Below the pieces are notes generated by a model that saw only the letters and a list, made by a program, of their open reading frames with translations, was not told where the DNA came from and ran no database searches. The position numbers and the translations under genes were made by a program. From Bacterioplanes sp. (lineage in GTDB: Bacteria; Pseudomonadota; Gammaproteobacteria; Pseudomonadales; Oceanobacteraceae), in contig JACUUC010000002.1 of NCBI GenBank assembly GCA_014859445.1, forward strand, positions 1-64,000: 64,000 bases of DNA, in the 5' to 3' direction. Positions 35,841 to 40,254 of the stretch are shown here, one piece after another (position 1 is the first letter of the stretch; each line of letters begins with the position of its first letter).

Positions 35841-37646
35841 TTAGTCACTCAGATCCGCGCGCCCAACGCCGCGCGGGTCACTGGCTGTCGTCACCTCATG
35901 CGCACGCTTATCCCACAGAATCGCCTGCATATTGCCATAGCGACGTTGAATTAAACGCAATTCATGTCCCATGGCTTGTAGTTGTTCGATTTCTTCGTCA
36001 CTGAAAGCATGGTCTTCGTGCTGGATAACATCGGGTCGATACTGGTGATGGAAGCGAGGTCGTGCTACCCAATCGTCCACTGGACGCTGTTGCAAGTGCT
36101 CCAACACCCCCAACAAAACCATGGTAATGATACGGCTACCGCCCGGAGTACCTAAAATGGCGGTTTGATGGGGGCTGTTGATGATGGTCGGTGTCATACT
36201 CGACAGGGGGCGCTTGCCCGGTGCAATGGCGTTGGCATGATTACCCACGAGACCATAGGCGTTGCCTGCTCCTGGCTTGGCCGAAAAATCATCCATCTCA
36301 TTGTTCAATACAATCCCTGTGCCTGCGACGGTGAAGGCTGAGCCGAAGGGTAAATTGATACTGAGTGTCGCGCTGACCATATTGCCGTCTCGATCCAGTA
36401 CGGAAAAGTGTGTCGTATGCAGACCTTGTTGTGGATCGTCGGCGGAACCTAATGCATCACTGGGGGTGGCTTGATCGGGACGAATCGACGATACCCAGTG
36501 CTGCGCCCGTTGCTCTGACAGCAGTTTGTGTGTGGGGACATCGACAAAGTCCGGATCACCCAAATAATACGCGCGATCACGATAAGCGCGGCGCATGACC
36601 TCAACCAGCAAATGCGTTTGTGCCACTTGATCCAATGATTGCCAATCGTAGTGGCTGAGCATGGTCAGCATTTGTGCAATGGCAATGCCACCCGATGACG
36701 GTGGCGGTGCGCTAATGAACTCTAATTCACCATAGTGTAGGTGAATAGGCTCACGTTCCACGATGCGATAATCGGCCAAGTCGGACAGCTGCCAGTCGCC
36801 ACCATGGCGTTGTACTTCGCTGACCATGCGCTGCGCGGTGTCACCGCGATAAAAACCATCAAAGCCTTGTTCGGCTAAGCGTTGTAAGGTGTTGGCCAGA
36901 TCCGTTTGCACCACCCGAAAACCCAGTTCCGGCATGTCATTGTTGTCCAAAAAGAGTGCGGCACTGGTCGGAAAACGTTGCATGGCGACGAGTCGATAGC
37001 CCAAAAACTGACGATAGCGCTCATCGATAAGAAAGCCATGTTGAGCATGCTGAATGGCATTGGCCAAGCTGTCACGAAGTGGTAATCGACCGTACTGCTG
37101 TTGTAGGTGAACAAACGCGGCGGCCTGTCCGGGAATGGCGGCAGCACTGGGGCCATTAATGGCACGGTCACGCTCGACGTTGCCATCGGCGTCTAAATAA
37201 TAATCGGCATGTGCCGCGGCCGGTGCGCGCTCACGAGCATCAATAAAACGATACCGTTGTTGCTCGGCGTCGTATATCAGCCAAAATCCACCACCACCGA
37301 TACCGGCGCTGTACGGCTCGACCACTCCTAAGGTGGCTGCGACGGCAATCGCGGCATCAAAGGCATTGCCACCCTGAGCCAAAATGGCCATACCGGCTTC
37401 GGTCGCTAATGGGTGTGCACTGGCAATGGCGGCTTTGGTGGGCGTGGGTTGTGTGGCTGTGGCTTCGACATTCGGTTGGGGTGTGTGCGTTGGTGCATTG
37501 AGTGCTTGCGCTTCGTCGGCGGTTACGCGCATGGAAGAAGCAGTATCATCGAGTGGTGCATGCGTACAGGCGCTGAGACTCAGTAACACGCTGAACGTCA
37601 TGATGGTAAGGCGATGGTGAGTTCGTAATGATGGATTCATACGCAT
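35841..37646 (-). CDS. ggt: Gamma-glutamyltransferase (lipoprotein signal)
   Basis: A 601-residue N-terminal-nucleophile hydrolase that cleaves glutathione and other gamma-glutamyl compounds in the periplasm. The N-terminus ends in a lipobox (LLSLSAC), so it is probably lipid-anchored. The large subunit starts near GGNAFDAAIAVAATLGVVEP. The autocleavage site and nucleophile is the second Thr of GLHTTHFSV, followed by the small subunit with NNEMDDFSAKPG and PLSSMTPTI. The GTPGGSRI motif is intact. The ATG abuts the T run of an intrinsic terminator, and the only Shine-Dalgarno-like bases are inside that hairpin. ATG at 37640 is an alternative start. Confidence 0.93.
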   Translation of the reverse strand: MRMNPSLRTHHRLTIMTFSVLLSLSACTHAPLDDTASSMRVTADEAQALNAPTHTPQPNVEATATQPTPTKAAIASAHPLATEAGMAILAQGGNAFDAAIAVAATLGVVEPYSAGIGGGGFWLIYDAEQQRYRFIDARERAPAAAHADYYLDADGNVERDRAINGPSAAAIPGQAAAFVHLQQQYGRLPLRDSLANAIQHAQHGFLIDERYRQFLGYRLVAMQRFPTSAALFLDNNDMPELGFRVVQTDLANTLQRLAEQGFDGFYRGDTAQRMVSEVQRHGGDWQLSDLADYRIVEREPIHLHYGELEFISAPPPSSGGIAIAQMLTMLSHYDWQSLDQVAQTHLLVEVMRRAYRDRAYYLGDPDFVDVPTHKLLSEQRAQHWVSSIRPDQATPSDALGSADDPQQGLHTTHFSVLDRDGNMVSATLSINLPFGSAFTVAGTGIVLNNEMDDFSAKPGAGNAYGLVGNHANAIAPGKRPLSSMTPTIINSPHQTAILGTPGGSRIITMVLLGVLEHLQQRPVDDWVARPRFHHQYRPDVIQHEDHAFSDEEIEQLQAMGHELRLIQRRYGNMQAILWDKRAHEVTTASDPRGVGRADLSD

Positions 37647-37672
37647 AAAAAAGCCCCACCCTTAGGTGAGGC
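37647..37672 (-). terminator. Intrinsic terminator abutting the ggt start
   Basis: On the minus strand: GCCTCACC, loop TAAG, GGTGGGGC, then TTTTTT, then the ggt ATG with no gap. The 8 bp stem is fully paired with one U-G. It lies 60 bases after the ferredoxin stop and would terminate that transcript. The possible ggt ribosome site (TAAGG/GGTGGGG) is within the loop and 3' arm. Confidence 0.75.
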
Positions 37673-37731
37673 TGTCCAGTAACCTAAGTAGCCATTAGTG
37701 TGGGCAACTTGGCGCGTGGCTGCAAGAGGGA

Positions 37732-40254
<2,523 letters not shown>

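Follow-up and report, generated by a model that had tools for sequence, protein, structure and literature searches.

Bacterial genes that lie side by side have to be shielded from one another's transcripts. In the insertion sequences IS10 and IS50, RNA arriving from upstream folds over the transposase ribosome-binding site (RBS) while RNA from the transposase's own promoter does not; that arrangement lies at the ends of mobile elements and is not a terminator between genes. In phage T4 the RBS of genes e, soc, 49 and I-TevI is buried on long RNA, and the late-promoter RNA of gene e, from which the 5' part of that inhibitory structure is missing, is described as well translated (PMC3014915). 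At repC of plasmid pT181 a single hairpin acts on both transcription and translation, with repression of 85% versus 98% in the dual form (PMC5435934). Here we describe a hairpin fused to the start codon of a gamma-glutamyltransferase gene (ggt) of Bacterioplanes sp. (genus labelled g1), found in positions 1-64,000 of contig JACUUC010000002.1 (GCA_014859445.1), a stretch of 64,000 nucleotides (nt) referred to as the window, and compare it with the same boundary in related genera.

On balance, we lean towards reading this hairpin as an intrinsic terminator of the upstream coaD-fdx unit that is built into the ggt 5' leader, with the choice of promoter setting its effect. The likeness to gene e is that the longer upstream RNA hides the RBS, which for ggt is predicted, and that the RNA of the gene's own promoter lacks the 5' portion; the T4 hairpins, however, are translational locks, whereas the ggt hairpin adds a U-tract and is terminator-like, at a chromosomal gene boundary. 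The RBS is sequestered in the predicted folds of the longer RNA from 17 relatives and from the window's species itself, and a gene's own start within or after the 5' strand fits the geometry of 17/17 relatives but not that of the window's species. With the pT181 repC attenuator the ggt boundary shares one hairpin predicted to affect transcription and translation alike; there an antisense RNA switches one transcript, whereas for ggt no antisense is proposed and the originating promoter would decide. The ggt counterpart of a pT181-like antiterminator is a 7-bp candidate in the window's own genome only. By this comparison the ggt unit would join features of T4 gene e and pT181 repC, each half being already known. 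A literature search returned no recognised chromosomal case with the start in one terminator arm and the Shine-Dalgarno (SD) sequence in the other, which is weak evidence of absence given that most of the subscription literature lay outside its coverage.

The fused element in the window consists of three parts:

37652-37673, minus strand: terminator hairpin of 9 bp with loop TAAG (predicted fold, and pair comparison across relatives)
37647-37652, minus strand: U-tract, T6, adjoining the ATG (read from the sequence)
37654-37660, minus strand: SD-like GGTGGGG within the 3' arm of the hairpin (anti-SD duplex -7.8 kcal/mol)

Read 5' to 3' on the minus strand (37673-37652), the hairpin is AGCCTCACC-TAAG-GGTGGGGCT, with nine pairs of which one is G-U. 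An earlier reading of the window by a model (the sequence-only reading) had reported a fully paired hairpin of 8 bp; its presence is borne out, its pair count is not. The same reading placed the end of a U6 run exactly at the ggt ATG and the only SD-like bases inside the hairpin, and both statements agree with our analysis: the first T of T6 (37652-37647) doubles as the last paired base of the hairpin, the ATG at 37646-37644 follows directly, and GGTGGGG is the sole SD-like stretch before ggt. The stem is G+C-rich (9 bp with 6 G-C) and is followed by T6 on the sense strand, which is the sequence signature of an intrinsic terminator. The 33-nt hairpin piece has a predicted energy of -15.5 kcal/mol (z = -3.95), equalled by 0/200 shuffles. 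Genome-wide, the pattern GGNGG..TTTTT..ATG gave 27 matches, compared with 11 for a reversed-pattern control, and among the 27 ggt alone has a hairpin ahead of the intergenic start of a long gene. A search of 37400-38100 against Rfam gave 0 matches at E up to 1 to a riboswitch or known leader family.

Relatives were collected by GGT protein searches, which yielded family loci from 44 genomes, with extra stretches added by hand. The genes coaD, fdx and ggt were all present in 30/30 loci of the first set. The fusion of hairpin, U-run and ATG occurs in 18/18 readable loci of three genera (g1, the window's own, 1/1; g8, 9/9; g2, 8/8); these genera comprise 19 genomes, of which the ninth g2 genome (G061) has a ggt fragment only. 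It is absent in 21/21 loci of the other family genera, namely g3 (7), g4 (7), g5 (2), g6 (4) and g7 (1), a count that leaves out two g6 and two g4 genomes with fragments only or no match. The stem has nine pairs in all 18 loci, and the hairpin-AUG spacing, which the sequence-only reading had singled out for comparison in relatives, is 3-5 nt in every one of them. The 3' arm holds GGAGG in 17/17 relatives with the fusion, in place of the GGTGGGG of the window's species. Counted in our own structural register, the 18 hairpins have 162 stem pairs, all of them standard (151 Watson-Crick, 11 G-U and 0 A-C). At stem pair 7 ten loci have G-C, five have A-U, two have G-U and the window's genome has C-G; relative to the other stems, that of the window's species carries changes on both sides at pairs 3, 6, 7 and 8. 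The loops vary in letters and in length (4-7). As far as sequence comparison can tell, the pair pattern and the loop variation suit a stem in RNA better than an operator in DNA. In one g2 locus (L036, genome G060) fdx is gone, and the promoter, hairpin and ATG come straight after coaD; the unit is therefore taken to belong to ggt. In ggt-forward orientation coaD ends at about 1312 of this locus and the ggt ATG stands at about 1405, a gap of about 90 nt. In a tree of GGT proteins g1 groups with g8 (83/94, not starred) while the order of g2, g3 and g5 is left open, so that a single gain of the hairpin and a gain with losses are indistinguishable.

The sequence-only reading had argued that ggt would need a nearby promoter or regulated readthrough, and a conserved promoter is present that it had missed:

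37720-37725, minus strand: -35 hexamer TTGCAG of the ggt promoter (part of TTGNNN-17-[CG]ANACT, common to 27/27 loci of g1, g2, g3, g5 and g8)
37697-37702, minus strand: -10 hexamer CACACT of the ggt promoter (same motif; 2 bits at 4/6 positions in 16 of 18 fused loci)

The motif lies between the fdx stop and ggt in each of the 27 loci, and a looser search allowing spacers of 15-19 nt again returned 17 nt for all of them; the strict form was not seen in the 12 loci of g4, g6 and g7. Among the same 16 fused loci conservation is bipartite, with hexamers mostly near 2 bits and a spacer mostly <0.6. A generic sigma-70 scan of the region did not detect this promoter, because CACACT fails the scan's -10 rule, and it was found by comparing relatives. 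The -10 is CACACT-like, and not TATAAT, in all 27 loci; we take it to resemble a sigma-S type -10, in which case stationary-phase expression would be possible. A search for TTGCA-N18-CACACTA in the 44 genomes gave 13 matches (10 being ggt) versus 31 in a reversed-pattern control, with no sign of a regulon. In six g3 loci (L016, L019, L021, L022, L025 and L026) a strong inverted repeat without a U-run was seen by eye to overlap the ggt -35, which looks like another kind of overlap, of the fdx 3' end with the ggt promoter.

Conservation of the hairpin, of the SD sequence and of the promoter is well established. In the 17 loci of g2 and g8 the first base of the stem directly follows the -10 (distance 0), and the ATG lies 27-29 nt from the -10. 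Transcription beginning, as predicted, at the 7th base past the -10 would start within the 5' arm and leave 3/9 pairs. To judge by the relative positions of promoter and stem, the 5' arm probably holds the ggt transcription start in these two genera, and the RNA would escape the hairpin. The predicted cost of freeing GGAGG averages 13.2 kcal/mol (11.0-15.6, n = 17) on readthrough RNA and 4.4 kcal/mol (2.3-6.4, n = 17) on own-promoter RNA that begins at nt 7 past the -10, or 6.9 kcal/mol if it begins at nt 5. Once free, the SD of the relatives would form anti-SD duplexes of -9.3 to -12.2 kcal/mol, compared with -7.8 in the window's species.

We infer termination, the start site and the translational effect from these features, and they would combine as follows. 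RNA from the coaD-fdx unit would form the whole hairpin and mostly end in the U-tract, and any readthrough past it would keep GGAGG buried in the 3' arm. RNA from ggt's own promoter would begin in the 5' arm and form no hairpin, exposing GGAGG 7-9 nt before the AUG. The 27-29 nt from -10 to ATG in g2 and g8 would then serve as initial transcribed region, terminator, SD and spacer at once, and the unit would make ggt deaf to upstream transcription while its own promoter stays free. For g2 and g8, a start-in-arm insulator is the best reading, and the unit resembles an insulator combined with an RBS more than it does an attenuator. Transcription from the ferredoxin side and translation of ggt had been proposed to exclude each other. 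This holds, in prediction, for hairpin-forming RNA, which would be expected to read through poorly and to keep the SD hidden; it does not hold for own-promoter RNA, which is predicted to escape the hairpin in the 17 relatives. If true, this arrangement would provide transcriptional and translational insulation in <30 nt, with the downstream gene keeping its own expression. The ggt boundary would be a testable example of how two closely packed genes come to be uncoupled, and an inexpensive natural model for building small insulators. Software that predicts terminators and software that calls start codons would disagree at such a boundary.

Several points weigh against this account. RNAalifold gave no consensus structure on the MAFFT alignment, because MAFFT set some 3' arms one base out of register. 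Against the 27 promoter matches, 300 dinucleotide shuffles gave 0.26 on average and at most 2, but the motif was derived from these same related sequences, which makes the control partly circular, and the -10, CACACT, differs greatly from TATAAT. If transcription began on the G four nucleotides after the -10 (nt 4), 6 bp would remain and opening the SD would cost 10.3 kcal/mol, and even the own-start RNA would pay the 2.3-6.4 kcal/mol given above for SD release. Nucleotides 5-10 after the -10 are all pyrimidines in g2 and g8, and an all-pyrimidine window is poor for transcription initiation. Finally, 23 nt separate -10 and hairpin in the window's species, where the start-in-arm geometry is not found, and opening the SD (five-base SD window) would cost 8.1 kcal/mol even from the predicted own start; the predicted fold of the longer RNA puts this at 10.3 kcal/mol.

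The leader of the window's species therefore has to be considered separately, with the following predicted features:

37690, minus strand: predicted ggt transcription start, 7th base downstream of the -10 (from geometry only)
37682-37688, minus strand: CTTAGGT, possible 5' strand of an antiterminator, in the window's species only (7 Watson-Crick pairs with 37667-37661)
37661-37667, minus strand: ACCTAAG, possible 3' strand of the antiterminator, overlapping the 5' arm and loop of the terminator (pairing with CTTAGGT)

A start at 37690 would give a 44-nt leader containing the whole terminator. A regulated attenuator would have ggt RNA hold the entire hairpin, with a signal or an alternative fold letting polymerase and ribosomes pass, and CUUAGGU/ACCUAAG acting as antiterminator in this leader. 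The conserved promoter 23 nt upstream of the hairpin suits such a device. While the nascent RNA is 30-36 nt long and the terminator still incomplete, the 7-bp alternative pairing is its best predicted fold, and SD release (seven-base SD window) would cost 8.5 kcal/mol for leaders with CUUAGGU and 15.2 if they start after it. The final energy nevertheless lies on the side of the terminator (-15.5 versus -6.7 for the antiterminator); the pairing, a post hoc find in one genome, was matched by 25/5000 shuffles of the 17-nt spacer; its genus is represented by a singleton; there is no match to an Rfam family; and the leader of the 17 relatives is too short for a switch. We regard a regulated attenuator as unlikely to be the general explanation. 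The suggestion of an attenuator in the sequence-only reading is not favoured for the 17 relatives, where the promoter touches the hairpin and the predicted start is in the 5' arm, and may apply in the window's species alone, where the hairpin would lie wholly in the leader. There, hairpin and start codon are kept with compensating changes and the -10 is 23 nt more distant; the gene's own transcript would carry the terminator, perhaps partly relieved by CUUAGGU/ACCUAAG, unless a nearer start is used. By sequence, the ggt boundary is a real, conserved and compact element whose mode in the window's species may differ from that in g2 and g8. A bolder proposal, which we advance tentatively, is that one hairpin supplies the upstream terminator, the downstream start (5' arm) and the SD (3' arm), that the promoter used would by itself determine if terminator and translational lock form at all, and that in the window's species it has been stretched by ~23 nt into an antiterminator-controlled attenuator, making an evolutionary pair of insulator and attenuator.

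A simpler possibility is that an ordinary fdx terminator touches the next start through a small gap, with ribosomes melting the hairpin and neither regulation nor insulation involved. A search of the family for CCTCC/GGAGG-T-ATG gave 40 matches, of which 17 are ggt, and with 23/40 elsewhere such terminators are common enough to adjoin an ATG by chance; loci were retrieved for 17 of these 23, and 2 resemble the starts of other genes. Chance adjacency, however, does not sit easily with a fusion found in 18/18 loci at constant spacing and retained in L036 without fdx, with other family genera that have the promoter and start but no hairpin, or with an opening cost of 11.0-15.6 kcal/mol on readthrough RNA. 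This alternative is quite unlikely, and a terminator whose effect depends on the originating promoter is still preferred.

The inverted repeat might instead be a DNA operator bound by a repressor, and its place right after the -10 is typical of operators. The half-sites are not symmetric at fixed spacing, since loops range from 4 to 7 nt; a T6-T7 run always follows, on one strand only; and the 11 G-U and 0 A-C among the 162 pairs, with one-sided G-U changes, reflect the tolerance of an RNA stem for transitions, leaving an operator very improbable. A ggt RNA that begins within the U-tract or immediately upstream of it, to be translated almost without a leader, is hardly credible, since the T-run does adjoin the ATG in all 18 fused loci but the relatives have a conserved -10 27-29 nt upstream and keep GGAGG perfectly at good SD spacing.

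The gene order on the minus strand is coaD, fdx (encoding a YfhL-type ferredoxin), hairpin and ggt:

38018-38497, minus strand: coaD, pantetheine-phosphate adenylyltransferase, opening the upstream unit (TIGR01510, 196.9 bits)
37732-37992, minus strand: fdx, YfhL-type 2[4Fe-4S] ferredoxin, start set at the ATG at 37992 (NF033683, 136.6 bits)
35841-37646, minus strand: ggt, gamma-glutamyltransferase with a lipoprotein-type signal (TIGR00066, 467.9 bits)

The ATG at 37646-37644 appears a credible start of ggt, because the frame opens with a lipoprotein-type N-terminus (MRMNPSLRTHHRLTIMTFSVLLSLSAC, containing what we take to be a lipobox) and a start is found at the equivalent place in 17 relatives. 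At 37640, two codons further, another ATG has no better SD than the one at 37646. In one relative (L007, genome G022) the ATG that follows the hairpin begins a frame of 74 codons that carries a lipoprotein-like signal, and the remaining ggt is in another frame; the frameshift within the first 74 codons may be real or an assembly error, and the leader is included in the counts. Outside the family, 41/80 GGT loci have fdx upstream; judged on the first four candidate starts per locus, in at least 13 of these 41 a possible ggt start overlaps the fdx stop, and in 3/41 a terminator-like hairpin of any kind lies no more than 25 nt from a candidate ggt start. Given this tight packing elsewhere, the present family therefore seems, on comparative grounds, to have uncoupled an ancestral packed fdx-ggt pair. 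Pseudomonas aeruginosa has the gene order coaD-fdx1-PA0361, as here, and its fdx1 RNA, seen as one band of <500 nt, is described as monocistronic; the ferredoxin gene is also described as essential (PMC2984482). The word 'terminator' occurs 0 times in that paper.

Extended to 293 genomes of the order, the CCTCC/GGAGG-T-ATG search gave 46 matches (6 being ggt), and 2/24 readable loci outside the family resembled real gene starts by eye (L191 and L201). No widespread class of such fusions is evident in the family or in these 293 genomes. In L191 (G280) and L201 (G171) a hairpin and T-run lead into the ATG of an unnamed 325-aa open reading frame (ORF) and of an acylphosphatase-like ORF, respectively, and the two gene-start-like cases within the family precede a phosphatase-like ORF (L078, G020) and a MOSC-like ORF (L083, G033), all named by eye. 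One further locus (L098, G033:C32:81936-82235) carries a tandem array of three CCTCC..GGAGG-T7-ATG hairpins that resemble one another and are spaced by 135-140 nt; a four-codon ORF follows each.
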